64,000 nucleotides of DNA from Prunus persica (taxonomy: Eukaryota > Streptophyta > Magnoliopsida > Rosales > Rosaceae). Position 1 is the first letter of the stretch. Every line of letters starts with the position of its first letter. Position numbers and translations under genes: made by a program. Below the pieces are notes generated by a model, which saw only the letters and a program-made list of their open reading frames with translations, searched no databases and was not told the DNA's origin. Below are positions 33,256 through 56,904 of this stretch, piece after piece. Where the stretch lies: contig NC_034012.1 in NCBI RefSeq assembly GCF_000346465.2, forward strand, positions 17,056,985 through 17,120,984. The letters are read 5' to 3'.

Positions 33256-33394
33256 GGGAAATAAGCTGATATAATCACTTTTCACAAGTGGTATTCTGAA
33301 ATAATCAGGTTACAAATTGTGTTCTGATATAATCACTTGTGAACGTGAAATGACCAAACTGCCCTCCATATAAAAGCACATGTATCAACCCGTT
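33256..33394 (+). repeat. Giant MULE left terminal inverted repeat
   Basis: 139 bp identical (inverted) to 56766-56904. Internally it repeats 'GATATAATCACTT' twice, possible transposase-binding words, and ends shortly after a TATA box. Confidence 0.95.
33369..33375 (+). promoter_or_regulatory. TATA box in left TIR
   Basis: TATAAAA facing inward, suited to start the Ulp1-gene transcript in the following 'ctctctccc'-rich leader. The mirror copy in the right TIR serves the transposase. Confidence 0.6.
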
Positions 33395-34938
33395 ATTGGC
33401 CTTTGATTGGCGACCTAACGCATCTGGCTTCTCTCCCTTTCTCAGCGCTCAGTCACGGTTCTCTTCCTCTCTCGGCGGTTTCTGTGTCCATCGACCACCA
33501 CCACTCTATTTCTCCCTCTGTCACGAAAACCTAAGTAACACTCTGTCGTTCTCTCTCTGCAGTGAATGTTAGGGTTTGCTGAGGGGGCTCTTGACGGTGA
33601 AAGAGAGGGTTTAATCGTGAAATGCTCTCTCCCTTAAACGATGTCTCAGTTCCCTCTAAGTTCGAGTCTTGAATCGACGTCGTTCTCTTCTTCTCTGCTC
33701 CTTCAGGGCCTAAAAAAACCCTAAATTTTGGTTTCGGTTAGGAATTTGTTCACAAACGTCCTCCTCCTTCTCAATCCTGTGAGACTCGGTTAGGACAAAA
33801 GTCGCGATTTGCTGTAGGTGTTGCTGGGAATTCGAATTCTGTTCTGTGCAGAGAAGGAGTGATTCTAAGGTGGGTTTTGTATTTGTTATTGACTAGTTTG
33901 TGTTTTTGTATGGTTATCATTTGAGAAGGATAATTTCACTAACCTGTGACTGAATTTGTGAAGTTTAGTAATTAGAGATATTGCAATAATAATGTAATTT
34001 AACTGTGAAGTAGATCATGCTGGGATGAAACTTGTATTGGTGTATTGATTTTGCTCTATGGATGATGCAGTGCCTCAAATTGCTATTTGTCATATAGGAT
34101 TGGTTCTATGGCAATGCTTGTTTTCACTTCCATTTTATGAGTCATATTTAGTGTGGGAAATTATTCTGGTGCCAAGGGCTATTCCATTATAACACACCAT
34201 TACCTCAGTAGGCCCTGAATTAGGTGTTGAGTAATAATGCACAAGTAAATTTGTTGGTATCATTGGTGTTTCAGCACGTAGTAGCATATTTTGCACCCTT
34301 CCAGTGTTAATGGTTAATTATGTGATTTTGAAATACTAAAGTTAGTTGCCGTGGAAATTTTCTGTTCCCTGTGGTATAAAACGTGCTAAATTGTGTTGTT
34401 ATTCCTTGCTTGCAGCTTGTGATATATGTCTGAAAATGGTATTTTATGGGGCTTTAGTATCTGTTTAGAAATTGCATGTTCATCCATCTAGGTTTAGCAG
34501 TTGCAGTTGCAGTAACATTTTGACGTGTCTAGTTTGCACACAGAGTCCATAACTGTGAATACTGATGTTCCATGTGTGGTACTGTATTGCATATGAGCAT
34601 ATTGTAGTAGGCATTGATGCATTTGGAGTAATTTGTGTAGCCATTTCAGCCAAACCCTGTATGAAGTGGATCCGTGGTTGATGAAATTGTTTTCAGACTT
34701 GGGTGGTATTTGGTTTTTTGATGGAATGGGATGTACATTTGGCAGAAGGGAATGTAGATAAGAGGAGAGTGTGGAGAGAGTTGGAGAGTAGAAAAGAGGC
34801 TTAAAAACATTTATGGTTTTATCAAATGTATATACATATATCAAAATGGGTTGAAAGTATTAGTTTGAGTAATGTACGTATGAAATATGGGTAACCAATG
34901 ATCCATATGTATGATGTTGTTGTGCAGGGAACTTGAGA
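33395..34938 (+). other. Leader and 5'-UTR intron of the MULE Ulp1 gene
   Basis: A pyrimidine-rich leader (33420-33560), a donor AAG|GTGGGT at 33870 and an acceptor GCAG at 34924-34927 just before the ATG at 34939. The intron resembles the long 5'-UTR introns common in plants. No coding sequence. Confidence 0.6.
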
Positions 34939-37900
34939 ATGGCTTGTAAAGCAAAGCTTATGATTCCTGAGGATGAGAAGTACGAAGGAAAGCCATATGC
35001 CCTTTCACACACAAGGACTGCCATTACAACAATAAAGGCGAAGTTGAATACGCAGCAGTTACAGAGGTTCGAGGGAAGTTGTTTTGGTCATCTATTACTG
35101 ATAGAGGACCTGAAGTGGAATTCACAAATTGTCCACGGCCTGTTGATGAGGAAGGCTGATCCTAAGACAGTTACACAGGTGAACGGAATAAAATTCATTG
35201 TGGGTAACAAGTTGATACAATTCACAGCCCAACAATTTTGCCTCATCACGGGGCTAAGGTTCGGAAAGCTCCCTTTCATTTTGAAGGCGACAAATGAAAA
35301 TTGCTCGTTGAAGCGAAAATACTTCAGCAGCAATAAACCTGCCACCCTTTCGGACCTACACACCGCCTTCATCGAGTGCACAGATGATGAGGATGCGTTA
35401 AAGCTTGGAATGGTCTATTTTGCCAATTTTGTTCTATTGGGTACTGAAAAGCATGTGCTTATTGACATGCGCTATTTGAAGTTGGCTGAAGACCTAGAGG
35501 AGTTTGACAAGTATCCATGGGGCGCAGTGTCATATGCAATGACAAATGCTTCACTGTTGAGGGCAGTTTCTGCTGAATACCAACGAGTCAAAGTGCCTCA
35601 AAAAAGAAAAATGCCCAAACAACGTGGAAAGAGAGCGCAGACAAGAATGCGAAGTGGTAGACCAAGAGAGTACATCATAAGGGGGTTTGGCTTCGCTCTT
35701 CAGGTGAACACATATCCAGCAATTAACTATTTGATGTAAATACATTTACAGATATTGATGTTTCATTGTTGTGAACAGATTTGGGCTTTTGAAGTGTTCC
35801 CAGCATTGGAAGCATTGCATTTCACGGTCCATGAAGACAATAGGCACATCCCTCGAATATTACATTGGAGGAGCAACACGGTGGCCCGTTTTCGGGAGGT
35901 TATGAGTCAGGTTTTTGAAAACTTTGAGGTTAGATCTGTTTGTATCAGTGATGTTATGATTAGGAAAAAGTACAAAGTTAACTGATTTTTTTTATGTGTT
36001 TCAATTGGAGGTTGATGTGCAACTTCTCCGGCCAACAGATATTGAGAAGCAACAACCTTACTGGAGTTGGGGTGATGATGACAACGAAGAAGCAATGGTT
36101 GAATTATTTGGGGATGAGGCCGAAGAAAAAACCGGCACTTCTAGTGAAGAAAAAGACGCGGATGTTGAGGAAACAGGCACCCTTCCCTCCTCTTCTAAGG
36201 TGAGCATGACCTTTTTCCAATGTTGTGAAAATATAGCGAATACGATAGGAATGAAGTGGAAATAGTTTCCTAGTTTTTTGTAAGCTTTCTAAATGTTGCA
36301 TTATAACTGTATGCAGGCCAAAGGGTCTGTTAATGACGTTCGCAGTTTGAAGCATCAATTACGCAGCACTAAGGATCAGTTGGCTAAGCTACGTAGTTCA
36401 AATCGGGGGCTTAGGAACAGAGTTCGTGACTTGGAAGCTATTGTACAGAAGAACTGTTTGAAGCATGAGAACGAGTGTGACAGAAATAACAAGGCTATTC
36501 GGGATTTGACCCTAAAAATTGCTGAAGTCGAACATTATTTGAAGTTGGAGATGGAGGAGTTAAAAAAAAATTATGGTGGAGAAGGCCATGAGGAAGTCTG
36601 TACTGCTCAGATGAATGAAGGAGGGCAGAATGATTTGTCACCCGTAAATGAACCTACTAGTCCGACTACAGCAGCACCTAAAATGGACACTCAAGTTCCA
36701 GCTGATGGAGTAGAACCCTTCCCAGGCATGCATACAGAACGGGGTGAAATGGAAGCAGCAGTCTGTGGTGATGGAGTGGAACGCTTTCCAGCCTCAGATC
36801 AAGAAGGGGCTGCAAGGGAAGCAGAAGTCCCTGCTGATGGAGTGGAACCCTTCCCAGTCATGGAAGTCATAGACACTGAAATTGAAACTTCAGTTCGTGA
36901 GAGGCAAGTGGACCAACAACCTCACAAGGTTCCTACCTCTGAAGATGTGAAGCTTCCTAGTGTTGAAGATGCCCTCCTTCCTACTCCGGAAGATGGGAAT
37001 GGGTATAGAGTTATTTGTAAAACAATGTTACATTTGTTACAGGATTGGAAGAAGACAGAAAGTGAGGGGGTGGGATGCAAGGTCAGGCCTCCCATGAAAT
37101 GTAACATAACTCTGGTTGGTGATGAAGGGGACAACGAGGCTACTGGCACGGTTCGGAAACCAGATGGTGAAGGCAAAGGGTGCAGACTTAAGCGGGCTGC
37201 GACACCATTGTTGAGTCCATTCACCGATCCCTCCAGGAAAAAGAGGAAGGTTACTGATTTGCATGCAGAGACACCTCAGCCCCGTTTTGATCCAACAAAA
37301 CCCGTGGCCATGGACGATGTTAAGGCTATCATACAACTTTGCAGGGCTTGGAAAACTGACATCAGGTTAGGATTTGTATCTTGGCAAAACCAATATACTT
37401 GTTTTTTGATGTATGCAAACAATTTATACACAGCTATACTATACATGTGTGTGTCATTGTCATATTATACAAGGTGTTCCACTTGTCTATTATATTTGAA
37501 TTTACCTTTGTAAGTGTTGTTTTTGTAGTGCGGAGCTGGAGCTCGAACCATTTGAAGTTGGGGCAGATTTTTTGTACAAACTGTTAGATGAAACTGCATG
37601 GATGAGCTCGAGGGTAACAATTTGAACCCGGCTTTATTTCGATCAATCTCTTATTTGATGACATTGACTATGTGTCATTTGTTGTGATCTTGACGCGGTT
37701 GTTGTGTTCTGAAATAGCAGCACCTTGACATGGCCATGTTTCTAATACGCAAAAGACAACTCTCTCATCCGCAACTATTTGGAAGGGAGTGGACAACCGC
37801 CGAGTTTTGTCTGCAGGTAATTTTGTATCCATATTATGTGTCACTGCAGTTCTTGCATTGGTAGGAGTCATGTAGGTCTCTCCTTTTGGTGCTTTGGTTT

Positions 37901-38609
37901 GGGTTTATGTAACGTGTCTTTCACACTTGGTTGCAGCAATTTTTACAGCCGTTTGCAATGCCAAGTGGGAAACGAGTCACGAGGAAACAATCTGCTGCAA
38001 CGACCGTTGACCCTCCCCCTAACTACCTAAAAAATGTACACCACTTTGTCAATGGGTCATGGCAACATGGGTATGCGCAAGCATGGACGAAAGTGCGCAA
38101 GGTCTATCTCCCGTATAATGTTCGACAGTCCCATTGGGTGGCAGTAGAAGTCGACTTTGTGCGACATACTGTCACTGTCTATGACTCGTATTCTGATTTT
38201 ACCTCCCATAGTATGCTTGTCCGATTCATGGAGCCTATTACCCATACGCTTGCAAAGGTGCTGCATGAAATGAGGTTTTATGAGAAATCGGAGGTTGAAG
38301 CGGTGAAGAGAAAGGGGACTGACATGTCAAACTTTAACCCATTCACAATTTGCAGAATTTCCGATGTTCCTCAACAAACTGATGGGTAAGTTGTGTTCTT
38401 TTAAATCACTATACTCGGATGTTATGAATAGGTGCACTTCTAACTTGTGTACTGCTCGGGTGGACAGTACTTCATGTGGCATTATGACAGTCAAATATAT
38501 TGAGTACCTTAGTGCCGGCATTCCTTTACATACCATTGACCCATCCAAGTTTGGCTACTACCGATTTAAGCTTGCAATCGAGGCTTTCAGGGGGGAGGCC
38601 TATGTATGA
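34939..38609 (+). pseudogene. Ulp1-like SUMO protease with DUF1985, MULE-encoded (one frameshift)
   Basis: Modelled exons: 34939-35703, 35779-35928, 36011-36199, 36317-37365, 37529-37613, 37720-37816, 37937-38385, 38432-38609, all with GT...AG junctions; a 5'-UTR intron (33870-34927) links it to the TIR promoter. Exons 1-2 encode DUF1985. Exon 4 has a coiled coil (about 36320-36590), three 'DGVE.FP' repeats and a basic 'RKKRKV' nuclear signal. Exons 6-8 encode the C48 cysteine protease: His in 'SHWVAVEVD', Asp in 'VYDS' and Cys in 'SCGIMTVKYIEYL'. Such enzymes cleave SUMO in the nucleus. Exon 6 has one extra T in the run at 37738-37741, shifting the frame between 'HLDMAMF' and 'LIRKRQ', so as read it is inactive unless that is a sequence error. 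Confidence 0.85.
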
Positions 38610-40264
38610 GGTAAAAGTCCTAATCTGACCTCATTGCTGCTTTATTGTTAATTACTGCCTTTGGAATTGCGTTGTTATTTACTTCATTCTAGTTACGTCG
38701 TATGTACTCACCTGTGATGTCAGTGTTCATTTAAGAGAACTTACATTATGTTGGGAACTTGTCCAACTGTGATCACTAAAAATGGCTACTTTTGTTCTTC
38801 AAAGTGTAGGGTACTGGGGATTTGAACACTATAGATGGTAATGTCAATGTTTCGCAACTGGCATCTGATTTACGTATGTCATATGTTCTAAACTCCGACT
38901 GTGTGTAATCCAAAACTTGTTTCATGTTCTTTAAGAAAGGTTCAAACAATTACTTCTTCAAATTGAACATGTCTTACGACATCTCATTTTCCCTTTATAT
39001 GAATGCTGAAGTGGCACATATGTCCTCCTTCTGCAGGTGGTCCTTCCAGCTTCATACCCATATTGACATCTCAGATTCTGTACATGTATGTGAAAGAAGT
39101 TGCAGGATGTTTTGTCGTATTGTGAATATTGAAACTGCCTAAGCAGTTTTTGCGTAACATGGCACAATTTTTGACATTTTGCTCACCACGCGATAAAGTG
39201 GGGTGATTTTGTAGTAGGTTGCAGGGTGTTATTTATGTAACGGAATTCAACTGTACTTGTCTTTCATGGTAGAAGGGCTGTATTCACTTTCCTTTGTTAG
39301 AACTAATTGTTGACATTCTGTGCTTAAGAAATTCCTGTAAATCCATAATTTGGCACAAGTTGCAGCGAAATGCAATTTTTTGGGGCCACCCACATTGTAG
39401 CTTTTCCCATTATTTTATTGCCACTATAGCGAAATATTCGACTCTCATTTGGCAATATATTAGGGTGTTCATTTTCGTGACAGTTGAACGTATATATTCG
39501 GTGGCTATGTCATTTTGAACTTGTAAACTCCCAACCATATCATACTTTTTGTTTGAGAATAATGCTTGTTAATTCGACATATTTTTGTATAACTTTGTTT
39601 ACTAAGTTTAGGGCTTGCATATTGGATATGGATGAGTTTTGTTTAGAACCATATGTGCTGTAATATGAGTTGTTTAAAAGTTTGCTGTTTTGTGCTTCAT
39701 CATTGTGTGCTTAAAAGAAAGCGGGAAATGAGTGAAGATGGGAACCTACCACCAGCAGCTGTGGTTTAGAGAAATGGGGACATTGATTTTGCTATAAGCT
39801 AACTGTTTAAGCTTTTGCTTTTGTTGTTTGTGTATGGATACTTAGAGAACTCTGTTTCTGAGGAGAACTTATAATTTTGTAATTGTACATGTCTTACAAA
39901 CATTTTATACCGTTTTGATGGTTTATTTATGAATTTATCTTTGATTTTTTGTTAAGAAACAACTGAAGGGATGGTGCCAATTTCTTTCATTTTCTTACAT
40001 TTGAAAGGAGGGCCATAGTAGCGTCAGTACTGTCGTTGCCACTAATTCATAGGATGTTCCATTACAGTAACTGCCGAGTCGTTTTTCATTTCATGTATTT
40101 GTCCGTGGTATTTTGTTCCCCAATATTCTGATTATGGTCAATATGTAAACATTACTGTGGAGCTTATTGTATGTTTTCTTTATTTTGTGGCCATGACTTA
40201 TTTTGTGGCCACCATACCAAATTGACTGCCCCTTGAATTGCACTTGACGCTACCACAATTGTAG
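38610..40264. other. Spacer between Ulp1 gene and captured CCT3
   Basis: About 1.65 kb of 3'-UTR-like T-rich sequence. No exon recognised. The last stretch before 40265 ends in a pyrimidine-poor 'ttgtag' acceptor and belongs to the captured CCT3 intron. Confidence 0.5.
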
Positions 40265-42240
40265 GGGTGGACCTTGGCCAGGGTCTGCGGGAATGGATAT
40301 TCAAAAGTACATAAAGGTTGAGAAGGTTCCTGGTGGCCAGTTGGAAGATTCAGTGGTTTGCAAAGGAGTAATGATTAACAAAGATGTTATTGCACCTGGA
40401 AAAATGAGAAGAAAGATTTTCAACCAACGCATCATTCTTCTTGATTGGCCTCTCGAATATAAGAAAGGCGAGAACCAAACAAATGCTGAGTTGCTTAAAG
40501 AAGAAGATTGGGGAGTCCTGCTACAATTGGAAGAAGAATACATCGAGAGTCTATGTGTGCAAATATTGAAGTTTAAACCAGATGTGGTTATGACAGAAAA
40601 GGGGCTTAGTGACTTGGCATGCCATTATTTTAGCAAGGCCGGCGTCAGTGGAATGAGGAGGTTGCGGAAAACAGATAATAACAGAATTGCCAAGGCTTGT
40701 GGGGCTGTAATTGTTAACAGACCAGATCAATTGCAACAGTCTGATGTTGGTACAGGCGCTGGGATATTTGAGGTTAAGAAAATTGGTGATGAGTTTTTTG
40801 CATTCATTGTTGATTGCAAAGAGCCTAAAGCATGTACTGTACTCTTGAGAGGTCCTAGTAAGGATCAGTTAAATGAAGTGGAAAGGAATTTGCAGGTATA
40901 ATGGTTTTACTTCTTTGTCCCCATTACGTAGAATAAATATATTATGCTGAAATGTCTTATTTACTCCCTTATATCTGGTCATAGGATGCCATGTCTGTAG
41001 CAAGAAACATCCTCAAGAATCCGAAACTTGGTCCTGGTGGTGGTGCTACACAGTTAACTGTATCTGCTACATTGAAGCAAAAGAGTTCATCTGTGGAAGG
41101 TATAGAAAAGGTAAAAGCTCCTTTCCTCAGCCAAAAGTTTGGTATTTCTTGTGTAAAACTCGTCCAAGAATAACTCCTTGTGGAAGTAGAAATCTAAATT
41201 CTGTGAATAAACTGGCTGTCACTTCAATTCACATGCTCCTTGACATACTTTAGATTAAGAATTAGTTGTGGTTTCACTTTACATGCATTTTATTGGAGTT
41301 TTATGGCTACACCTGTTTTTATGGTAAAACAGTGGCCGTATGAAGCTGCTACTATAGCTTTTGAGGCTATACCACGTACTTTCGCTCAGAATTGCGGGGT
41401 GAATGTGATTAGAACAATGACGGCGCTGCAGGGAAAGGTTTGAATCTGTTTTGTATGGCTTTGTTCAGTTTTGTTATGATTTGTCATTTCTATTTACGTT
41501 CTGCTGCATCATTATTATTTTGGTCAGAATATGATGCATCATTTAGATCCTAACCACAATTTTTTTTCCATAGCATGCAAATGGTGAAAAATCATGGATT
41601 GGCATTGATGGTAACACTGGTGTGATAACTGATGTGAAAGAGAAAAAGATAGGTGGATATCTTTTTGGCTTACTATTGTTGCTCTCTTTTATTTCCTTCG
41701 CTATCTCAATATTCAAATTTGTTGGGTGATTTATATTTGCTGAAAGCTCTGAAATAGGACTTTTAATGTAGTATTGTTCTCAAATGTATCCATTATATGT
41801 CCCTTTATTTATATGGCATAAGTGTCAATCTTCTGGTTTATATTGTCGATTTGCTTCAGTAGTAGTTCTAGTTTAGAGCTTCTCCCAATATATTTCGACA
41901 GCACTCATGTGAGGGGAAGTGCTGTTGTCGTGGTTATTACTAAATTTCCCAATAAATTTATTTTGTTGGTAAGGCTGTTCATTTTTAGGAATTATGATGT
42001 CAGATCTGGGATGCCTACAATGTGAAGGCCCAGAGTTTTAAAACGGCCATAGAAGCTGCTTGCCTACTTCTCAGAATCGATGACATTGTGAGTGGGATGA
42101 AGAAGAAGCAGCCTCCTGGTGCCAAAGCTCCTTCCAAGCCTCAAGTTGAGACAGAAGGCGATGCAGATAATGAGCATATAATTCCGGAGTGCTTATCGAG
42201 ACCACGTGGTTATCTCAGTTTGAATGAAGTTTTGCTTTAA
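40265..42240 (+). pseudogene. CCT3: Captured genomic fragment of CCT3 (T-complex protein 1 gamma)
   Basis: Exons with introns retained: 40265-40895, 40985-41110, 41333-41437, 41574-41648, 42004-42240. They cover the C-terminal two thirds of the gamma subunit of the cytosolic chaperonin: 'VDLGQGLRE', 'IKVEKVPGGQ', 'VDCKEPKACTVLLRG', 'DAMSVARNILKNP', 'GVNVIRTMTALQGK', 'AYNVKAQSFKTAIEAACLLLRIDDIV'. The N-terminal ATP-binding third is missing and no MULE promoter leads into it. Damage: one base is missing near 40292 (Glu then a shifted frame), the donor after 41648 reads AT instead of GT, and the normal end is replaced by 'CLSRPRGYLSLNEVLL'. Intron retention shows capture from DNA, not from mRNA (Pack-MULE behaviour). 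Confidence 0.9.
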
Positions 42241-42976
42241 AGAAGAAAATAAGGAGCATTATAAGTTTGATGAGGATATTTTTTAGGTTTGTAATGTCAC
42301 CTTAACTTGGTAGTGTGTGTTTTGTCCCTCTTCTTTCTTTCTCAATCGACAAGGGGTTGGAAAGAAGAGAAGTCTTCTTATTGGAGAATGCTAATGTTAG
42401 TTTCACATGTCATCTGTGTATCGAACACAATTTCTTTGTTCAACTTCGTGGATTGGCACAGTGGAGCTTATTTCTACCATTCTTCTGAATGATTGTTAAC
42501 AGTCCAAACTTAGTTATTGACACAAATATGTACTTTTCTAAAAGTAAGAAAACAAAAAGTTTTTCATGGCCAAGCATCAATTTTAATAAGCCAGTGTGGC
42601 ACCTAAAACACACAACGTACGGCACTGTACACAAACTTGTGGAGGAAAGGATTCATATTGAGCATCTATTTTATCCACTTAGGGAGACTAAGAATTGATC
42701 TTGTCACTCCCATATTCAGCCAATACGCCACGTATTGATTCAAAGCAGAGCTTAAAAATGAAACAAAAGCAGATAAAAAACCCTAGACACGGCCAGCTGA
42801 TGCAACTGAAATTGGCAAATAGCAAAGATGACATGAAGTCTGGGACTTCACAAGCGAGGCTGAACGAGGATGAAGCTGTGAGGGTTGCATACAAGCATGG
42901 GACGCCTCTTGAAGGAGGCAAAATTGGTGATTCTGAGCCTGTGGATTTATTTTCCAGTCCTCATCATATTCCAAAG
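42241..42976. other. CCT3 3' flank and unrecognised frame
   Basis: 42241-42500 looks like the captured 3'-UTR. A 94-codon plus frame at 42695-42979 (containing 'RLNEDEAVRVAYKHGTPLEGG') looks protein-like in composition, but I cannot place it; it may be another captured exon. Confidence 0.4.
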
Positions 42977-43165: not shown

Positions 43166-43222
43166 GCCAGGGCGGTCCCCTGGGTAACTCACATGCTCGT
43201 TAGGAGGGCGTACATCTGACAT
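43166..43222 (-). pseudogene. Truncated accessory-gene start (19 codons)
   Basis: The minus strand encodes 'MSDVRPPNEHVSYPGDRPG', matching the start of the intact accessory protein at 51402-52001 ('MSDVIPPNEVVSYPGDQPW') with a few changes, then breaks off directly into the iteron cluster. A deletion relic of the same family. Confidence 0.8.
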
Positions 43223-45658: not shown

Positions 45659-45689
45659 AGAGTATGCAACTTCGAATTTGTCAACAGCA

Positions 45690-47165: not shown

Positions 47166-47264
47166 CTGTGTAATATAGGAATTCTAAGAACTTTAATGTT
47201 TTGGATCCATTTGGAATTACATTCAAGTCCCTTTAATTTCGCACTGAAATTATAATTGCAATCA

Positions 47265-47340
47265 GGAAGCAATACCAGTACAATAAAAGGTCAATATAAT
47301 GGCAATATGTCAGCAATACAGCATGCTGTAGCAATGCAAC
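47265..47340. repeat. CAATA iteron cluster 3
   Basis: 'gcaataccagtacaataaaag', 'gtcaatataatggcaatatg' and 'gcaatacag' in the short gap between convergent XRCC3 (+) and the transposase relic (-). Confidence 0.7.
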
Positions 47341-47446
47341 CCAAATAATGCAAATTTAAAAGAATTCCCATTCAACATAACACGAAACCCACCACAAATA
47401 AAAGTTGAGTTCACATGACCTACCAAAGCAACACAAATCTTATTGT

Positions 47447-47743
47447 CTAAGATACATTGCGCAATGGAATATTGTTTTTACAGGTGCTTTTATTGTGGCC
47501 TGCGGAACCGCACCTTGAGCACTTTCTTCTAATGCTGCCCTCTCCTTGCGAGGGAATTCTTAACTTCTTTCGTCTGCCTGGCATGACCCTTGCCATGGGA
47601 GGCAGCACAACTCGACTTCGAACATCTTCAGGAGTATCCCACATTCCGTGAGGTTGTACCGGGTAGATGCTATCCGAATAAGCATCCATCCAGGTTTTCC
47701 GAGTGTAATACCGAGAAGCCTTTGCGTATACACTTACTTTCAA
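47447..47743 (-). pseudogene. C-terminal relic of a second MULE transposase
   Basis: The minus strand encodes 'YYTRKTWMDAYSDSIYPVQP', 'VMPGRRKK.RIPS.GE' and a CCHC knuckle 'CSRCGSAGHNKSTCK', colinear with the last 85 residues of the intact transposase at 53273-55726 ('YYTRATWAAAYAESIYPVPP', 'VMPGRRKMQRVPSKGE', 'CSRCGVKGHYRNTCK'). The DDE domain is absent and the frame has no upstream homologous part, so this is a fragment of a diverged relative incorporated into the element. Confidence 0.85.
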
Positions 47744-47859
47744 GAAGCGGAAAACTATAACTCATTTCACATAATCCCACTGATATTAACAAAATAACCA
47801 TGAACACTACCTTTTCGGGGTCGGCAATCCACTAGAGCTTCAAGGTTGCAAGCAGCTAT

Positions 47860-48290
47860 TCAGAAGACATAGCTAAAGGGAAGGGTTCGCGATTCCAAAC
47901 AGAGACCAACAGATCGAATAGGGGAGAAAGAGATAACGAAGCTACAGAGAGCAACAGATCGAGTAGGGGAGAAAGAGATAACCAAGCTACAGAGATAAAC
48001 GGCTGCGCTATGACAAAGAGAGCAAAGAGAGAGACAGAGAGTTGTGCTAGAGAGAGAGAGAGAGAGCCAAGAGAGACCCACAGAGCTGTGATAGACAGCT
48101 ACCAAAGAGAAAGCCAGTTGTGCCAGAGAGAGAGAGAGCTGTGTGACCTAAGAGAACAGAACAAATTTATGAACTTGTGAAAAATCAGCAATAAGGGTAC
48201 AATAATTTTATATTTATAGGTGATAGTTCCAAATTTTATAAAAAAGGGTGGTATTTTCAGTTACAATTAAAAAATTGGTGGCATTTTGGG
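47860..48290. other. GA-rich spacer with short duplication and CAATA words
   Basis: 'cagatcgaataggggagaaagagataac' and a near copy lie about 50 bp apart (47908, 47956), then (GA)n runs near 48050-48066 and 48126-48140, then 'gcaataagggtacaataat' at 48187. It could be the promoter and leader for the minus-strand transposase relic. No coding sequence. Confidence 0.5.
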
Positions 48291-48575
48291 CTATTTCCCA
48301 ATATTCTATTGTTTGACGTCATTGAGTAGTAGTTTTGGGAGGTCCCTCACCGTCTAATATTTTGTTATTTCTCATGTTTACGTGGAAAAAATGGTCTGAC
48401 GATTGAGGCTGCATCAGACTTTATACCAAAATACCTGAGCCTGGGGTTATTGCCTATGCCGTTTGTGTTTGCCTTTTCAAACCAAGATGAAACCACAATA
48501 GAAAATGACCATCTCTGCCTTCACTGATTCAGAATAAATAAAACCTGTTCCATTACATCCATAACCTAACCAACT
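48291..48575. other. Spacer 3' of the GRF gene
   Basis: No recognisable feature. Confidence 0.4.
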
Positions 48576-49118
48576 TTAACCTGCCAACTGTAGATGACCA
48601 GGAGTCCTATTACATTTGGAAAACAACAAATAAATGACCATTCCAACCAAGAAAACAGATACCCAAAACCATGGGTTTTTCATCTTTCCTTTTCCAGCGT
48701 TTTTTTCTTCTTCCAGCCGGTTTATTTTCCTAAGCAAGCCTGGAATGATGTGCTTCGATCTGGCACACATCTCTGGGTCAGCCCATTCCCAAAATGTACA
48801 TCCATTCCTCTGCACAAACGGAAGCAATGTTTTCAAACAAAGACATCTAGCATCAGATTTGGAATACAGACAATTCCCACATGTCAGCTAAAACTTACAC
48901 ATAAATAAACTTACCCTTGCACATACTTGAAACCTCCTTCCAGGATGAGAAACCGTCCACGATGTATGCGTTTTGACAACGTTCCCACAGTAGCACAGCC
49001 GTGAACACACAGAACTCGCAGCTTCCATTTCCCAGCGAGATCTTGAAGTCGCGTCTTGACCGGCCAACCGAGACGTCACTGACTCACCCTCACCGGTACG
49101 GGGGCTCCTCCTACTCAT
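48576..49118 (-). CDS. GRF-type zinc-finger protein with C-terminal membrane anchor
   Basis: Two exons on the minus strand: 49118-48915 (68 codons) and 48809-48576 (77 codons plus stop), joined in phase 0 with donor GTAAGT and acceptor GTGCAG. The protein, 145 residues, has a Ser/Arg-rich start, a GRF zinc finger (Cys in 'CYCG', 'HPGRRFQVCAR' then 'NGCTFWEWADPEMC'), a basic helix 'LLRKINRLEEEKNAGKGK' and a final hydrophobic segment 'WFWVSVFLVGMVIYLLF' like a tail anchor. GRF fingers bind single-stranded nucleic acid in some proteins, and small GRF-plus-helix proteins occur often in plant genomes near transposons. Function here is unknown. It lies between the transposase relic and accessory gene B, same strand as both. 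Confidence 0.75.
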
Positions 49119-49429
49119 CTTCTTGTTTTGGAGGGTATGAATTGTTGTTCACGTTGTGCAATATTTAGGGTGCTGAAGAGGGTCATCCCAAATTCAAAGG
49201 GTTACACTTGCATGTGCACAATGTTTCAGTAACATGGTGTGAGTGCACAAACATGAAACCTGGAGTTAATGGGGTGTTTTTAAAAAGGAAAAATTTTTTT
49301 TTTCCAATATTTACCATTGCCAACAGTAACTATAGATTGGGCCCAATGTTATTCATAGCCTTAGTTTATGACAGATACGGCATGGTATACACTTGCATAT
49401 ACAGTACATTCCATTCTTAGTTGTTTTTA
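49119..49429. other. Spacer upstream of the GRF gene
   Basis: Likely promoter and leader of the minus-strand GRF gene. A T-run at 49293-49301. No motif stands out. Confidence 0.4.
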
Positions 49430-49640
49430 TATTGGGCTATTTATGACGTATTGGTAGGACAGTGGTAATATATTGGTATCATATTGTAACTTTATTGCAT
49501 CGCTATTGATTTGTATTGGTTTTATAATGCCCGATATTGGTGTTATATTGGCATTCCAATGTAACCTCAGCATTATTTGACATTGGTACAGCTATTATAA
49601 CATTTTTTATACTGTCTTACGTATTGGTTTTGCAATGTCA
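49430..49640. repeat. TATTG iteron cluster 4 (complement of CAATA)
   Basis: Repeated TATTGG/TATTGT words, for example 'gacgtattggtagg', 'atattggtatcatattg' and 'gatattggtgttatattgg'. It lies downstream (minus sense) of accessory gene B, so on B's coding strand these read CAATA. Confidence 0.8.
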
Positions 49641-50111
49641 AGGAACAAGTCTACAAATATGGACGATGTGGAAGGTAATTACGTTATATCGAATATGAAA
49701 TGAATGCAGCCAAACTACATCAACTGCAGTTATCAAAGTTCCTGCATTCAACACAAAAGAAAGGCACCTGAAACGTACATATAATACGAAGGCCACCTCA
49801 ACCTGGCAGCATACAAAAGCCAGGTGAAACTTACACAAGACAAAATGTACAAAGAGGTGACCTCAAACTTACAGAATACAATCTTAACAAAGACGGCACC
49901 TGCAGCTTACATTAAACATATGTACCAACGAGGCCCCCTTTCCCCAACAGAAAACAAATGAAACAAAAAAAAAAGGGCACCTCATACGTATATATTACAA
50001 AAATAGGGGACGTCAAAAAGTCCACTGTACTGGGTTTGTCCCCAATAGTAGCCATGGTAATATTACAAGGCAAACCCTCTCGCTGTGGCCCAATTTCGAG
50101 TTGCATACCCG
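49641..50111. other. 3' region of accessory gene B
   Basis: Contains a short phrase repeated three times ('aaggccacctcaacc', 'gaggtgacctcaaac', 'gacggcacctgcagc' each followed by 'ttaca' words, roughly every 40 bp, 49790-49910). No gene. Confidence 0.4.
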
Positions 50112-50639
50112 TCAAATGCGGCGACCGCGACCCATTAAGTTCATGACCCCTCCCACAGTGATGTCCCACTTTCCTTCTGCATCCACAATTTGTGCAAACT
50201 TCCTAAATAGTTCGAAGCCGGATTCCAGTTGTTGTTGCTTCAGCTGAGCCATTTCGTCTGATTCTTTGAATGCAATAACTGCACTGGCAGGGGCATTTTC
50301 AATTCTACCTCTGACAGCCTTCATATGTAGGAGATGCATCCGGGCTTGATAACGCGCCCGAATTGTGCGCTTTTTTATGACACCCCACCTAGCTTGGCCC
50401 TCTTTAATTTTGCTAACTATGTCTGCATGGAGATTTTTCCAGAACATGGTATTGGCTCGACATTGCTGCAGTCCATGGACCCAGTCTTCAGTGTCTGCTA
50501 TTGCTGCTTTGGCAGGTGTTTCAGTGTCCCCTCCTTCAGTAATGGCACGGGTTGGGTTTGGTGTGGGGTTGGGGTCCATGGGTGTTGGGTATTTACTGTG
50601 GGTTGGTGTGGCCATTAGTTTGACCAAACTGCCATTCAT
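50112..50639 (-). CDS. Accessory protein B, unknown family (intact)
   Basis: 175 residues. An N-terminal Pro/Thr/Asn-rich stretch ('PTPMDPNPTPNPT', about residues 19-31) leads into a helical, basic body: 'WVHGLQQCRANTMFWKNLHADIV', 'GQARWGVIKKRTIRARYQAR', 'AFKESDEMAQLKQQQLESGFELFRKFAQIVD', then 'WDITVGGVMNLMGRGRR'. It is the intact relative of copy A (45188-45658) and a remote relative of gene C: 'GFE.FR..A..V' and 'VGGV' are shared at the end. Glu/Gln-rich helices suggest oligomerisation; the Arg-rich parts suggest nucleic-acid or chromatin contact, but this is inference. A TCCCGCC array lies just upstream and a TATTG cluster downstream. No known domain. Confidence 0.75.
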   Translation of the reverse strand: MNGSLVKLMATPTHSKYPTPMDPNPTPNPTRAITEGGDTETPAKAAIADTEDWVHGLQQCRANTMFWKNLHADIVSKIKEGQARWGVIKKRTIRARYQARMHLLHMKAVRGRIENAPASAVIAFKESDEMAQLKQQQLESGFELFRKFAQIVDAEGKWDITVGGVMNLMGRGRRI

Positions 50640-50778
50640 TGTGATGTAGGTGAAATAGCTGCGCAGGCAGGGGGGGTTTGATGGAGTAACTGTGATGGAA
50701 ATGTTGGGTGGATGCAGCTGGGTTACAATTAAATAGTGGGAGGTATTAATGACCAGGAGTAAATGACTGTCATGAAGA

Positions 50779-50837
50779 GGCGGGAGTTATTGGCGGCAGT
50801 TGTTGGGTCCAATTTTAGGCGGGAGTTATTGGCGGGA
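50779..50837 (-). promoter_or_regulatory. GGCGGGA array (E2F-like) between accessory genes B and C
   Basis: Plus-strand GGCGGGA at 50779, 50818 and 50831, with GGCGGCA at 50792: offsets 13, 26 and 13 bp. The unit is GGCGGGAGTTATT. It is the reverse complement of the array before copy A and has the same 13-bp period. It lies 140-200 bp before gene B's ATG and about 570 bp before gene C's ATG, so it may serve both. Confidence 0.65.
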
Positions 50838-50845
50838 GTTGTTGG

Positions 50846-51401
50846 GCAACACATTTGACTTCGCCTGTGCATAATAACAGCTGTATATAACTATTCTTTA
50901 CCATTGGTTGGTGGTTGTTGTATGGGACCCATGTTGAATTTGAAATTTATTCCTTTTGTCCTCTTTCCCCAATTTCCCTCCTGTACCAAAACTACAAATT
51001 GTCCCAAATATATGAGTACGGTAATTTGACAATTAATTGGCCAATTACAAAAATGGACCATGAAAGTATTTGTAGGTGGATTCATCCCACCTGACGTTGA
51101 TAGGTGTGTATTTTCGTATTTGGTCCGACTGTAATGGGCATTTTACAATGCTGGCAGTGACAGAGAGGAGTAATGACTGAAGACTGATTTTGTAATGTAG
51201 TCATTGAAAGCAATATAAAACAGACAACTTCTTCTATATAAGAGGGTCTAACCTACTCATTCAATTCCATATATATCATACACGAAAGCTGTACTAAAGC
51301 TCACCCTATTGTTGGTAACGAAAAGGAAGCTCTAGATTGATTTTGTAACGTTAACTGTTTTTCAGGGTGCATGTGTGCATTATCCCCATTTCAAGTTGAA
51401 G
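50846..51401. other. Divergent promoter region of accessory genes B and C
   Basis: Contains 'tctatataagagg' at about 51234-51246, a TATA candidate roughly 160 bp before gene C's ATG, and 'ttccatatatatcatac' after it. No ORF of interest. Confidence 0.5.
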
Positions 51402-52001
51402 ATGTCAGACGTAATCCCTCCAAACGAGGTTGTTAGTTACCCAGGAGACCAGCCATGGCATGTCCCTTTCCCATCTCCACCTGGGACTCCAAATAACGAT
51501 CCCACGTCATCCGGAAGTGAGGCAGACAACATTGATCCGCTAAAGAAAATAGCTGAAGTGAAGCATCACCTCCAATATTTGTGTACGGCAACGGATTGGT
51601 GGGAAACCAAATGCGATATTCATGGCCAGGTGATGGGCAACTTGACGAACAAGCTGAACAAAGCATTTGCTAGAGAAGTTAAGCAAACAATGAAAGCCGA
51701 AAGTCGAAGCGCGAAGTTAGCCTCGTTGACGTTACAATTGGAAGAAACAAAGAAAGATGCTGTCCAAAAATTCACTGAATCTGAAGAATTTAACCATGAA
51801 CTGGTTGAATGTTTTAACAATGGGTTCGAGATGTTCCGGGATTATGCTTCCGTCGTGTCACCAGACTACAATTGGAGCGAAATAGATGTTGGTGGTGTCT
51901 GGCAGGTGCTGAATAAGGGTGGCCAGGGAATGGCTGATCATAGCCTTGTGCATGCAGCGAGGAAGAAGACCAAAGAATTGGATCTATTCATGGACCTGTA
52001 A
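51402..52001 (+). CDS. Accessory protein C, unknown family (intact)
   Basis: 199 residues from the ATG at 51402, chosen because the truncated relic at 43166-43222 starts at the same Met. N-terminus 'MSDVIPPNEVVSYPGDQPW', a Pro/Ser/Gly linker, then a helical region ('IAEVKHHLQYLCTATDWWE', 'LTNKLNKAFAREVKQTMK', 'LASLTLQLEETKKDAV') and a tail 'FNNGFEMFRDYASVVSPDY' followed by 'IDVGGVWQVLNKGG'. The tail matches that of protein B in pattern, so B and C look like diverged paralogues. No known domain. It lies head to head with B and is followed by TATTG words at 52205-52330. Confidence 0.75.
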   Translation: MSDVIPPNEVVSYPGDQPWHVPFPSPPGTPNNDPTSSGSEADNIDPLKKIAEVKHHLQYLCTATDWWETKCDIHGQVMGNLTNKLNKAFAREVKQTMKAESRSAKLASLTLQLEETKKDAVQKFTESEEFNHELVECFNNGFEMFRDYASVVSPDYNWSEIDVGGVWQVLNKGGQGMADHSLVHAARKKTKELDLFMDL

Positions 52002-52204
52002 ACATGGTGATTTTGTGGAAAGGTTTCTGTAGCTGGGTCAGGGTAAGTACGGGTGGAATCATTTTGTATGTATCTGGTGGCTTTTGTATGAATGTGGTGC
52101 CTTGTTTACGCCTTCCTCTTATTCTCACCGTTGAGTGGGAAATTACTTAGTTTGTATACATATGAAGTACTGTAACGTGGAGGTGTGCTTATTAAATGTT
52201 TATT

Positions 52205-52330
52205 GGCCTCATATTAGAAGCATTACGGGTGTATATTGTGTTTGTATTGTATAATTATTGACACATATTGTAATCGTATTGTGCTTATAGTACTGTTATA
52301 TTGCTGCTTTATGGAAATACACCTCATATT
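52205..52330. repeat. TATTG iteron cluster 5
   Basis: 'gtatattgtgtttgtattgtat', 'acatattgtaatcgtattgtg' and 'tatattgctgc' words downstream of accessory gene C. Confidence 0.7.
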
Positions 52331-52777
52331 ATAGCCTCTACATCTGAGTAGTTATAAACAGTGACTCTAGCAATGGTCGTGTATATGGAGGGTTTCGGAC
52401 AGATCGATGGTTATGACGCGCGGAATATCCATGGAAATATGGGACATGTATTGATACCTTCAGGCAATTGGATACAAACCACGGACACTGTGCCCAACAA
52501 TATAGAACACTAATAACTGACTTTGTTATTTTGCAAAACAGGTTGGATTGGAAGAGTTTGTTCCTCTGTGTGTGTGACTTGAAGTGAATAATTAACTATT
52601 TGAAAAGTCCATATGACGATAGTAGTGCAGGATGTTCACCATGTGTACCTGCATGGATAGTTTCCCAAAAACTATATATAGTTTGGTCTATGGCAATCAG
52701 AACAATGAGAAATCATGAAGTACAATGACGCTCTCAGTAATTGCGTAACATTTGCATTTGAATTACGTTTCAACAAA
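52331..52777. other. Spacer between accessory gene C and the transposase
   Basis: No gene seen. Confidence 0.4.
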
Positions 52778-52876
52778 GGTACAATACAATACCAATACGA
52801 TGGCAACAAGGGTACATTACAATACCAATATGATGGCAACAAAGGTGCGATACAATACCAATACGGTGCATATAAA
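52778..52876. repeat. CAATA iteron cluster 6: three 33-bp tandem units
   Basis: Units begin GGTACAATACAATACC (52778), GGTACATTACAATACC (52811) and GGTGCGATACAATACC (52844), exactly 33 bp apart. It lies downstream of the minus-strand transposase gene. Confidence 0.9.
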
Positions 52877-53272
52877 GACAGGACATAACGTTGTGTAGGA
52901 AAGGAAACCAAGTGATGCCAACGTGACTACAATCACATTTCACAACACCAAATCGAATTCAATTTAAATGAAAATAAAAGGTACATCACAAACGAATAGA
53001 AATGCTAATCTGTAAGACACATTGGCCAGTGGAACAGTGTAAAAGTAAGCAGCTGGTTTCAATAAAACAGGTAGAACTGTATGTTAACAAATTGCTACTA
53101 ATAATAGGCTCTCATTGCAAGGAACTTGTTACCTTGTTCCATATGCTTCACATGACCGTTTAATTGACGGACTTCCATCCCTGCAGCATCACCGAACCTA
53201 TTCATGAACTTCACAGTTGATGACAAGTGAGGTACAAACTGAACAACTGTGCAATATGCGCAATTAGACACT

Positions 53273-55726
53273 TCAGTTCTTGAGAGGGACAGATTGTTTG
53301 CATGTATTTCGGTAGTGGCCCTTCACACCACACCTTGAGCATTTTTTTTGCCGGGAGTCCTCTCCTTTGGAAGGTACTCTTTGCATTTTGCGACGGCCCG
53401 GCATAACCTTACAAACAGGAGGAAGGATTTTGACATTGTTCAAATGTTCGGGAATAACCCATGTGCCTTTAGGTGGTACAGGATAAATAGATTCAGCATA
53501 TGCAGCTGCCCATGTAGCTCGTGTATAATAAGAAGAGGCAAAGGAGTAGGGGTTCAAATTCAAGTGCCGACATACCGCAATAGCATGCTTGCACGGGAGT
53601 TGCTCCAAGTCAAACTTCCTGCACGTACAACTACGGTTTGCCAAGTGCACCAGACCGTTCAAATCACCATCCAGAACATTATACTCAACATCATTGATTT
53701 TGACCACATTCATCCTTGACGCAGCGTCTAACCTCTTCCTTAACTTCTGTTCACCCAAATCAGGGCACAATGTAGAATGACATTTCATTGCTAAATCTCG
53801 ACGTTGACTAAACCAAGTGAGAAGTAAATTTGTGATTTCATCGATCAAGTGTAGGACCGGAAGCATCCTTGCAAAACGAAGAACTGAATTAATGGACTCC
53901 ACAATATTCGTTGTCATCACATTATAGCGTCGTCCATCACAGTGGGCCCGTGACCACTTCTGAACGCCTGCACGTAGTAGATAAGTTCGCACTCGCTCAT
54001 TGTTTATCATCGAGAAGTGACGATTGAACTCCGCTAGACGATAAGACTTCGCTGCCCTTATAAAATACCCCAATATCGGATCCCGTTGCTTCAAGTGAAA
54101 TGAGGCTTTCATATTGCCCTTCAAGTGATAAAAGCAAATACCATGGCTTGCCCCAGGAAAAACTCTACGCAACCCATGTTGTATGCTAACATTGCGATCA
54201 GATATGACAACAAGATTCGAGCAATCACCAATTGCACAATGTAATTTTCTCAAAAACCACTCCCATGCTGCATCCGTCTCCAAATCTCCAATCCCAAAGG
54301 CAACAGGATATATGTTGCGATTTCTGTCAAATGCGGTCGCAACAAACAAAACACCTTTATACTTGCACTTCAAATGGGTAGCATCAACAGCAATCACGGG
54401 CCGCATTGACGACTTAAATCCTCGTATGCATGCACCAATTGACATAAAAAAATATAAGAAGTGGTCGGCTGCATCAGTCTGAATGTATGTCAAAGTTCCC
54501 GGATTTGTACGCTCCAACTCATAACAATAGGAAGGGAGAAGGGAATACGACTCTTCTGCAGACCCTCTCATTGTTTTGAAAGCTAACTCTCGGCTTCTCC
54601 AAGCTGTAGAGTAGCTTATGCTGACACCAAATTTTTTTTTCACATCTGTCTTTATATCAGCTGCAGTATAAATGCTGCGTGAATCCTGAAATCTCCATTT
54701 AACACAGTCAGACACCAATTCGGCCGTAGCTTGAGGATGGTGACTGCTTACAAACCTCAGATCACATTCATGAAGTGGATCGTATTTAACAACCTTAAAC
54801 TCATGTAATCCAACTTTATATGCCCGAAGTTTCCAAGGGCAAGGCACCTGCCAACAGCGAACACAAAACCGACGCTTCCCAGATTGGACTGTTCTGAACC
54901 GAAAGTGGCCTCTAATTGCTGCTAAACTGATGGTTTTTAAAAGGGCAATCTTATTTGGATACACTCGGCCAACCTTCAAATTTGCTTCCCAATTTATGCA
55001 CGAAAGTCCTCCACCATAACCAATATATTCCACACTCTCACCATGCTTCGAATCAACCCGAATTGTATGCATTTCACTCGAACTTGATTGCCGGGGAGGT
55101 TCAGATTGCACCTGTCTACACTGCACAGTGGAGGGTTCCGCACTGCTGTCCTCATGAGGATGCAGAATTGGTGCAGAGTACGGTTCCTCTTCATTGCTAG
55201 GTTGATTGAAATCAGCAACTATGTTTTCACCGCTTTCAAAATGAACTTCTTCAACCCAATCACTCCAATTAAAACCATTCCCACCATTTTCAGTTTCATT
55301 GTGCGAAATTGCCACATTTCTTCGTTCCACAACAAAGGTAGCAGGAGCATTGCTACTCTCCACGCTTACAATGCCATTACACCCTTCAATACCATGCCCT
55401 TCGATGTTTTTGAAGCTTGCTACTAAAGGGGTTACTTTAGAGGCCATAACATCTGTGTTGTACTTGAGAAAATATTGAACATCATCATTGTCTTCAACCC
55501 TTATCTGCTTACTGACAGATGCGGATACAGGAACTGAATACTTCAATGTGACACTATATTTCGTGGGCTCTGCATCCATGATCTTATAAATGCGTTCAAC
55601 AAGTTCAGAAAACGTTACGTTCCGTGACACTATTATGCCTTTAGCCTCCCCACCTTCATAACTCTCAATGTTATCCTTCTTAACCCAATTTCCATTGTAG
55701 CATACCAAAATTCCAACTGTATCCAT
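53273..55726 (-). CDS. MuDR/mudrA-like MULE transposase (intact)
   Basis: 817 residues from the ATG at 55726, which lies just inside a TTTGCAG acceptor of a 5'-UTR intron; upstream in-frame codons (55741-55727) are intron. The N-terminal part (about 1-95) resembles the PB1-like domain of plant MULE proteins, followed by an acidic linker, the MuDR zinc-binding region ('FCVRCWQVPCPWKLRA', about 287-302) and the MULE DDE domain with Asp448 ('AVDATHLK'), Asp510 ('ISDRN') and Glu610 ('NIVESIN'). Then come a SWIM finger (Cys700, Cys702, Cys712, His714) and a CCHC knuckle (796-809). It binds the TIRs and cuts and joins the element. No stop or frameshift, so the element may be autonomous. It is transcribed inward from the right TIR. 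Confidence 0.95.
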   Translation of the reverse strand: MDTVGILVCYNGNWVKKDNIESYEGGEAKGIIVSRNVTFSELVERIYKIMDAEPTKYSVTLKYSVPVSASVSKQIRVEDNDDVQYFLKYNTDVMASKVTPLVASFKNIEGHGIEGCNGIVSVESSNAPATFVVERRNVAISHNETENGGNGFNWSDWVEEVHFESGENIVADFNQPSNEEEPYSAPILHPHEDSSAEPSTVQCRQVQSEPPRQSSSSEMHTIRVDSKHGESVEYIGYGGGLSCINWEANLKVGRVYPNKIALLKTISLAAIRGHFRFRTVQSGKRRFCVRCWQVPCPWKLRAYKVGLHEFKVVKYDPLHECDLRFVSSHHPQATAELVSDCVKWRFQDSRSIYTAADIKTDVKKKFGVSISYSTAWRSRELAFKTMRGSAEESYSLLPSYCYELERTNPGTLTYIQTDAADHFLYFFMSIGACIRGFKSSMRPVIAVDATHLKCKYKGVLFVATAFDRNRNIYPVAFGIGDLETDAAWEWFLRKLHCAIGDCSNLVVISDRNVSIQHGLRRVFPGASHGICFYHLKGNMKASFHLKQRDPILGYFIRAAKSYRLAEFNRHFSMINNERVRTYLLRAGVQKWSRAHCDGRRYNVMTTNIVESINSVLRFARMLPVLHLIDEITNLLLTWFSQRRDLAMKCHSTLCPDLGEQKLRKRLDAASRMNVVKINDVEYNVLDGDLNGLVHLANRSCTCRKFDLEQLPCKHAIAVCRHLNLNPYSFASSYYTRATWAAAYAESIYPVPPKGTWVIPEHLNNVKILPPVCKVMPGRRKMQRVPSKGEDSRQKKCSRCGVKGHYRNTCKQSVPLKN

Positions 55727-56765
55727 TTCTGCAAAAAACATAAATAATTACTACACCGATTCATAACACTAAAAAAATACAAAATAGATGAATAAAAACA
55801 TGCACAACAATCATTCCACTACACATATCATCTTCTAAATCCTCAAATCTTCAAAAGTTAATTGTAGCTGCTTCAACAATTAACTTTTATTCCTTTTTGT
55901 TTTTTCTCTGATTTAGAAGATGATATCTGTGGGTTCCAAGTTATTAACAAACTAACATACACATACAATGGCAGAAATATGAACCCTCTAACCCTCCAAG
56001 TCTTTTGCACAAATGTAAACACCTTCAACAAAAGGATCAGGGAAGCAGAAAGCGTATAATGTAGTACAAGCTGAATTACCAAATTCGAAACCAACACACA
56101 CAAACTATACTTCTTACCAAAACAAACCCAGAATGCCAATAAATTCCCCACATTAGCATCTAAATTGAGCCTAACACTAGCCGTATTTACAAATTTGTAG
56201 GCCAGACAAAGTTAACCTATGATTTGTCTGTGTGCTGTTATTTTCACCATTATCAAACACATTGCACTACATTATACACGCATTCAGTCAATTTTAAACA
56301 AAATTCAAGTTCACCAGACAGCTCCCACTGCAGATAATATCACAAACTATGAATTTCAACATATCACAACAAGTGCAAACTGAAAATTTAAGCTTTTATG
56401 CCCTCTGTGGTGAAAAGGGGCTGAACGATTTCATAATACACATACACTACCAAACCAATATCACAACTCACATCCGTTCACAACGACACCGGAAGTCGCC
56501 ACTTTCCCTTCTCTCTGGAATCGCAGCAGTCAGCTCGATCTGGAGGTCAACAATGGAGGCCGTGCCTTCCGGCTTCGCTGCGCCCAAACTAGGGTGCCAA
56601 GTTTGAGGACATCTGGGTTAGGACGATGGATGGGTTGCGAACTGGATTGCTCAGTGGGAACATGTCTCGCAACCTGGAGTTCCCCCAATTTTTGCCAACC
56701 TTCCAACACAGAGGAGAGAGAGTTGAGCTGAGTTCAGACAAGTTCCCTTTCAGAAAAGGGGTGGC
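55727..56765 (-). other. 5'-UTR and leader intron of the transposase gene
   Basis: Between the right TIR promoter and the transposase ATG. The acceptor CTGCAG/TTTGCAG lies at about 55727-55733 on the minus strand. The leader near 56600-56760 is GA/CT-rich. The layout mirrors the left end, where a UTR intron precedes the Ulp1 gene. A donor was not fixed. Confidence 0.5.
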
Positions 56766-56904
56766 AACGGGTTGATACATGTGCTTTTATATGGAGGGCA
56801 GTTTGGTCATTTCACGTTCACAAGTGATTATATCAGAACACAATTTGTAACCTGATTATTTCAGAATACCACTTGTGAAAAGTGATTATATCAGCTTATT
56901 TCCC
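56766..56904 (-). repeat. Giant MULE right terminal inverted repeat
   Basis: 139 bp, no difference from the left TIR. A TATAAAA (minus strand, 56791-56785) faces inward. Confidence 0.95.

Follow-up and report, generated by a model that had tools for sequence, protein, structure and literature searches.

A 23.6-kb interval of peach DNA best explained as two nested Mutator-like elements, one of them from a family that carries XRCC3

The window, that is, the whole stretch of 64,000 nucleotides of Prunus persica DNA that was analysed, contains no N. Within it, a 23.6-kb interval is bounded by two 139-bp inverted repeats that are identical at 139 of 139 positions, and the 9-mer TTTTGTTTT lies at both flanks as a perfect 9-bp duplication. 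An earlier note had reported both, together with an open mudrA-like frame, an Ulp1 gene, a GRF zinc finger and an XRCC3 gene, and all of these were confirmed here. The note also took everything between the ends as one unit, and this was not confirmed for the middle of the interval, which belongs to a second family. The outer element, T, has the following features, in which T1 is the only other T copy read whole.

33247..33255, no strand, left target duplication of T, TTTTGTTTT, from the 9-mer identity of the flanks
33256..33394, plus strand, left terminal inverted repeat of T, 139 bp, from self-comparison and family matches
33256..39513, plus strand, left segment of T, 97.5% to T1 over 33255-39528, with uninterrupted relatives
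34915..35739, plus strand, N-terminal part of the T Ulp1 gene, DUF1985 (Pfam DUF1985, 4.1e-19)
37913..38609, plus strand, C48 peptidase part of the T Ulp1 gene, two overlapping frames, likely exons
48300..56904, plus strand, right segment of T, 95.5-95.6% to T1
48579..49148, minus strand, GRF zinc finger gene of T, two exon frames, from Pfam on the joined exons
50112..50786, minus strand, T accessory gene 1, from relatives named in the search
51336..52001, plus strand, T accessory gene 2, a distant homologue (about 24%) of accessory gene 1
53273..55747, minus strand, T mudrA transposase, open frame of 824 aa, from the frame and Pfam
56766..56904, minus strand, right terminal inverted repeat of T, 139 bp, from self-comparison
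56905..56913, no strand, right target duplication of T, TTTTGTTTT, from the 9-mer identity of the flanks

The mudrA frame matched MULE, DBD_Tnp_Mut and SWIM above the Pfam cut-off (PF10551, 3.6e-19; PF03108, 2.5e-9; SWIM, 1.5e-9). With these domains, and with terminal repeats and 9-bp duplications in the window and at two other copies, T is a Mutator-like element (MULE). Peptidase_C48 was found at 1.7e-11 on the frame 37913-38386, and the second frame of this part had no Pfam match above the cut-off. Neither exon frame of the GRF gene matched Pfam alone; when the exons were joined, Zn_ribbon_GRF was recovered at 6.1e-6, with 26.7 bits against a cut-off of 25.9. Accessory gene 1 had no Pfam match, and its named relatives (18 of 22) were all from Prunus.

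The terminal repeat of T recurs in 15 other pairs, and perfect 9-bp duplications of their own flank T1 and the copy at C1:23194164 (two of the two other copies whose flanks were compared), so the ends of the interval are not a matter of chance. We built the pairs from 40 scored repeat matches, 8 of which stayed unpaired. The search of the host with the terminal repeat, which the earlier note had proposed, thus found other copies, but all of them span 3.1-15.6 kb, and 12 of the 15 measure 15.4-15.6 kb. T1 was colinear with 33255-39528 and 48300-56904, and the XRCC3/CCT interval was absent from this copy; no XRCC3 match started inside any of the 15 other paired copies. The T site is split only in the window and is uninterrupted at 23 other places. 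Accordingly, the expectation that copies with the same ends share the whole cargo failed. The closest copy, C1:23194164-23205152, is 99-100% alike in most parts (96% in one) and has a deletion across the entire X interval, so that it is silent on whether its parent carried X.

The sequence that separates the two segments of T has the following features.

39514..48299, plus strand, internally deleted X-family MULE, nested, left terminal repeat missing, from colinear pieces in six X copies and junctions unique among the scored matches
40240..42321, plus strand, fragment of a CCT-gamma (TCP-1) gene, captured with its introns (Pfam Cpn60_TCP1, 1.9e-48)
43649..44717, no strand, AT-rich array of GGAAAATT-type repeats within X, extent approximate
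45263..45658, plus strand, accessory gene of X, homologous to T accessory gene 1 (50112-50786)
46284..47165, plus strand, XRCC3-like RecA-family gene, 293 aa and a stop (Pfam Rad51, 9.2e-31)
47447..47761, minus strand, remnant C terminus of X mudrA, from its frame and from X mudrA at the same point in X copies
48188..48299, minus strand, terminal repeat at the right end of the nested X, ending GCTATTTCCC, from the comparison of X copies
48300..48308, no strand, AATATTCTA, the presumed target duplication on the right of X, whose counterpart went with the left junction

X is a second MULE family in the genome. It has ends and 9-bp duplications of its own, and the DNA of its mudrA and Ulp1 genes resembles that of T's at no more than about 66-70%; relatives occur in other Prunus species. 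In five of the six X copies read, perfect 9-bp duplications stand beside the GGGAAATAGC ends, X2b being ambiguous. The mudrA frame is open, with 829-830 aa, in four of the six; it is split by one stop in X2b and masked in X4b by a 10-kb run of N in the assembly. The nested copy is without the Ulp1 block and most of mudrA. Most of its unique pieces within 39514-48311 are matched at 96-99% by the six copies (one piece at 90%, one at 94%), and whole stretches in and around the repeat array at 86-92%. Its right end directly abuts T sequence; over the last 0.56 kb it is only 79-81% like the six copies, and closer relatives of this end, at 96-97%, were found among the scored matches at C7:8459085, C3:17622241 and C1:25132564. 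Each junction between T and X was matched end-to-end only by the window, among 40 of 91 and 40 of 302 candidates scored. The captured TCP-1 fragment, which we take to be of the CCT-gamma subunit type, is 92.5% alike over 2160 aligned columns to the locus at C4:7938099 (L026), the end of which, as fetched, sets the right limit of the fragment. The accessory genes of X and T give rise to a 79% inverted pair (I1, 45186-45605/50162-50581).

The best explanation, in which we have high confidence, is that the 23.6-kb interval consists of two MULEs, X inside T, whether the nesting occurred here or the composite moved later. A T element of 15.4 kb would have inserted and made the 9-bp duplication; a related X element with XRCC3 and the CCT-gamma fragment would then have entered T at AATATTCTA, as the right junction, which survives, suggests. 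A deletion across the left junction would have cost X its left end (about 1.2 kb) and T ~160 bp. Because the left end and one target duplication are missing, the insertion of X can be read from one junction only. We infer the order of these events, the mechanism of the deletions and the action of mudrA on these ends, and the evidence comes from a single assembly. Since the ends match and the transposase frame is open, T could in principle mobilise the composite.

XRCC3 and the CCT-gamma fragment thus came with X, and the Ulp1 gene, the GRF finger and the two accessory genes belong to T. The earlier reading of the whole 23.6 kb as something like a cargo-bearing mega-transposon is not supported. 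However, the GRF finger and the accessory genes are T's own cargo, and T is still a real multi-gene MULE of 15.4 kb, with mudrA, the DUF1985/Ulp1 gene, the finger and two accessory genes.

As a special case of nesting, T may have received X at another site, and the two may then have moved here as one 23.6-kb unit, with XRCC3 as true cargo. The identical T ends and the perfect duplication fit a composite that moved once as well. The open transposase frame also speaks for such a move, and the nearest T copy might have arisen from a composite of this kind by deletion. However, a recent insertion of plain T predicts identical ends equally, neither junction was seen in a second copy among the scored matches, and the T site is empty at the 23 other places; we therefore regard this history as rather unlikely. 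The resolution of the supposed giant transposon into nested elements illustrates that a large interval with identical ends is easily misread.

The perfect ends and duplication would also suit one large MULE with XRCC3, CCT, GRF and the accessory genes captured piecemeal from the host, but this is very improbable, in that the middle belongs to a family that has separate ends and duplications and the T site exists elsewhere without it. The earlier note had named related copies ending inside the interval with other terminal repeats as evidence against its reading, and this is largely what was found: six copies with XRCC3/CCT end in GGGAAATAGC, and one such end lies at 48299. An assembly artefact that fused copies of T and X might be suspected from the repetitiveness of both families and from the run of N in X4b in the same assembly. 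We give it hardly any credence, because the window is free of N, the right junction coincides exactly with the X terminus, and T resumes past X and closes with the matching duplication.

Nesting is ordinary, and the novelty is that an XRCC3 gene resides in a MULE family. The X family is the surprise because most copies examined carry an XRCC3-like gene or pieces of it: XRCC3 or a piece lies downstream on the same strand at 35 of the 40 scored X places. No report of such a family was found among the matches listed from the openly licensed literature. The element gene has the Rad51-family core and the full plant length, contains GESGSGKT, presumably the Walker A motif, and falls among plant XRCC3 in the tree, where a long stem (0.45) leads to the Prunus clade; its nearest solved chain is 8gja_B (XRCC3). 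Of the 31 copies of near-full length, 23 have no internal stop.

Outside the repeat family, only one intact XRCC3 was found in the peach genome, at C5:9812095; it shares the coding stretch with the X gene and few bases outside it, and X may have acquired XRCC3 either as a retrocopy or as DNA. Because this copy adjoins a MULE Ulp1 fragment, host and element may have exchanged XRCC3. C8:1374823, considered as the normal host gene, was dropped as an intact gene because its middle is absent and only three short pieces match (residues ~1-50, 47-96 and 221-237, 40-59% identical).

A claim of purifying selection on the element gene was dropped, because an omega of 1 was not rejected by the codon model when only element copies were compared. 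The likelihood ratio statistic (LRT) was 1.67 (omega 0.75; 16 of 17 copies, the out-of-register row L052 being dropped) and 1.44 in a second set, in which L052 was in register and L010 and L053 (stops) and L049 and L050 (old broken copies) were out. Sets that included the C5 copy rejected omega 1 (LRT 15.7, 17.2 and 17.5), and a set without it to which the two old broken copies were added gave 5.7. In the omega-1 fits kappa was taken from a grid, by which all these LRTs are slightly overstated. A count of substitutions in 13 copies gave 20 nonsynonymous to 16 synonymous (P 0.007), a count that ignores transition bias. The amplification of MULEs is thought to depend on gap repair by the host. 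It is conceivable, though we consider it improbable, that XRCC3 serves X as a functional accessory gene, a RAD51 paralogue that would bias the repair of excision gaps towards the use of the sister or homologue as template and so bring a net gain of copies. With XRCC3 borne by the element, the question whether a cut-and-paste transposon supplies its own help for repair would become open to experiment.

Compared with host XRCC3, a RAD51 paralogue, the element gene has in common the Rad51 family, the full plant length and the grouping with plant XRCC3, but it is amplified inside MULEs and its Prunus clade stands on the long stem. Pack-MULEs typically lack a transposase. X resembles them in that its CCT fragment retains introns, as would follow from capture at the DNA level, and differs in that mudrA is open in most copies read and XRCC3 is a whole gene, commonly open. 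The Kaonashi (KI/KIU) MULEs of Arabidopsis have, like T, an Ulp1-type peptidase gene next to mudrA; KI elements are described as non-TIR in PMC13317346, whereas T has identical 139-bp repeats. The same paper places Ulp1-bearing MULEs in melon, grapevine and rice, which, as it describes them, combine mudrA and a C48 Ulp1 gene in one element as T does. In contrast to that description, T adds DUF1985, the GRF finger and accessory genes with named relatives only in Prunus, within 15.4 kb, and X additionally carries XRCC3.

The interval at 33256-56904, which the earlier note had read as a single cargo-bearing MULE of 23.6 kb, is almost certainly made of nested elements. Its termini had been described correctly: the inverted repeats are identical at 139 of 139 bases, the match ends at base 140, and the 9-bp TTTTGTTTT is found on both flanks, in a window that contains 0 N. 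The mudrA-like frame is open, as had been stated. The ends belong to a MULE family called T here, and the inserted part to a second MULE family, X, which carries XRCC3 and a CCT-gamma fragment.

33256-33394 and 56766-56904: terminal repeats of the T copy
39514-48299: deleted X copy, nested in T with near certainty
53273-55747, minus strand: open mudrA frame of 824 aa, between the T ends

The T ends also enclose frames for DUF1985, C48 Ulp1, TCP-1 and Rad51/XRCC3. The GRF finger was detected on two joined exon frames, neither of which matches alone.

The reading as one mega-unit is wrong. The genome searched comprised 227.5 Mb in 192 contigs, with the window on contig C4. When the 139-bp repeat was used as query for other full-length copies, the best 40 of 61 candidates were scored as matches, and pairing them by position gave 16 elements and left eight matches unpaired. 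Besides the window copy there were 15 other pairs, none of 23.6 kb: 12 measured 15.4-15.6 kb, and the remaining three were shorter, at 13.9, 11.0 and 3.1 kb (a short T copy of 3.1 kb lies at C5:3283047-3286137). T1, a 15.4-kb copy read whole, has its own perfect target duplication, ATATTTATT, and a mudrA interrupted by two or more in-frame stops. It matches the window at 97.5% over 33255-39528 and at 95.5-95.6% over 48300-56904; against 39529-48299 it gave no match except two weaker ones, of 73% (accessory gene) and 78% (88 bp). Near 51080, T1 extends about 0.42 kb beyond the window sequence; this stretch, which other T copies also have, is missing from the window at 51073-51094. For empty sites we used a 601-bp T1 stretch spanning the insertion point, with all 27 candidates scored. 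The point was uninterrupted, without the X interval, at 23 places (92-100%), two more matches at 80% each covered the query in part, and the window copy alone was split there, with 158 bp missing.

The nearest T relative of the window copy is an 11.0-kb deletion form at C1:23194164-23205152, with its own target duplication AAAACCAAA. It is 99% identical up to 38584, resumes at 51407 with 96% and reaches 100% from 52771. Its deletion spans the entire X interval, and it is therefore silent on whether X was present in the parent.

Queries across the T/X junctions each found one end-to-end match, the window itself, among the best 40 of 91 candidates (left) and of 302 (right); such a match is expected to rank high. 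On the right, the X end GCTATTTCCC at 48299 adjoins T sequence AATATTCTA. On the left, T at 39513 is joined to internal X, which indicates that a deletion across this junction removed the X left end and about 160 bp of T. The nested copy lacks three parts found in other X copies: about 1.2 kb at the left with the terminal repeat on that side, the Ulp1 block, and the greater part of mudrA. Over the final 0.56 kb it is 79-81% identical to the right ends of six X copies; the final 120 bp has closer matches elsewhere in the genome (96-97%), including one that lies behind C1:25128964, the XRCC3 copy most similar to that of the nested element. A dense GGAAAATT-type repeat array at 43649-44717 is part of X and holds low-complexity frames only.

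The six X copies read were selected for carrying both XRCC3 and CCT; in each of them DUF1985, Ulp1, CCT, XRCC3 and the two accessory genes are represented by matching frames. Their ends start GGGAAATAGC, and five have perfect 9-bp duplications (TTATTTATA, TATAATATA, TAAAAATTT, TAGAATTTT and ATTTAAAAA), that of X2b being unclear. They measure 15.5-17.5 kb, or 23.5 kb in X4b including an N run. Their mudrA is open in four (829-830 aa), has one stop in X2b, and in X4b its position lies under the 10-kb N run. CCT is interrupted by a stop in X4a, and an accessory frame is split in X2b. The four open X frames are 52% identical to T mudrA, and the families are therefore related but distinct; the accessory gene pair has opposite orientations in the two families.

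XRCC3 is a standing gene of X, including some copies at 86-92% identity, with ends checked in the six copies read. Among the best 40 of 84 candidate X-type DUF1985 places, 35 are followed downstream within 30 kb, on the same strand, by a whole or partial XRCC3, against a chance expectation of about 0.005 per place, and the distance is 7.4-11.6 kb at 27 of these; the other five scored places have none within 30 kb. This pairing used 73 of the 99 scored XRCC3 pieces from the genome search. Near-full-length copies at 92% or more number 31 including the window, 23 without an internal stop and eight with one. Variants among 13 element copies were 20 non-synonymous, 16 synonymous and one stop (20:16, binomial P 0.007 when tested against site proportions that take no account of transition bias). 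A codon model of 16 element copies gave omega 0.75 with an LRT of 1.67, so that omega 1 was not rejected; the LRT was 1.44 for 15 stop-free copies, 5.7 when two old broken copies were added without the C5 copy, and 15.7-17.5 for sets with the C5 copy. Window and C5 XRCC3 differ by dN 0.125 and dS 0.334.

Among the best 120 of 944 XRCC3 relatives, the closest named ones are from Prunus dulcis, avium, armeniaca, mume, campanulata, brigantina and persica (69-97%), followed by Malus and Rosa (60%). A tree was built from 36 of these proteins together with seven peach copies. It places the Prunus clade inside Rosaceae, with a stem of 0.45, and groups the C5:9812095 copy and its almond relative as sister to the remaining 20 Prunus rows. 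A Rosa XRCC3 query found nothing in the peach genome better than the C5 match (64%). This C5 XRCC3, the sole intact one detected beyond the repeat family, could be either a host gene that a MULE has struck or one that came back from a MULE. Within 1387-2506 of C5:9810500-9814500, a 201-bp piece that is 78% identical to the beginning of the MULE Ulp1 gene ends at 1587, and the XRCC3 match begins at 1589. A relic at C8:1373000-1376999 is split and partial, with its middle missing. In P. campanulata one protein joins an accessory part to an XRCC3 part, and in almond the locus tags 025673 and 025674 stand for an accessory-like protein and an XRCC3 protein, so an X-like order is present beyond peach as well. 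The CCT fragment matches C4:7938099, which we infer to be the host CCT gene, at 92.5% over 2160 aligned columns, as a single piece across several exon frames, so that it was probably captured as DNA.

Elsewhere in the window, a Ty1-copia gag-pol coding region (16486-20637) is split by one in-frame stop and immediately followed by a chalcone/stilbene synthase fragment (20976-21515). Just outside the T element, 58340-60822 holds two long frames of 268 and 384 aa, with no Pfam match above the cut-off, which possibly represent a gene of another transposon.

In the open-licence literature, nothing relevant by title was found on XRCC3 or a RAD51 paralogue together with MULEs, transposons or Prunus, and the passages of a Prunus review (PMC13359793) mention neither XRCC3 nor Ulp1 nor gene capture. 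What deserves further work is the X family with its XRCC3. Ulp1-bearing MULEs are already known, Kaonashi and those of melon, grapevine and rice among them, according to passages of PMC13317346 and PMC6117577.
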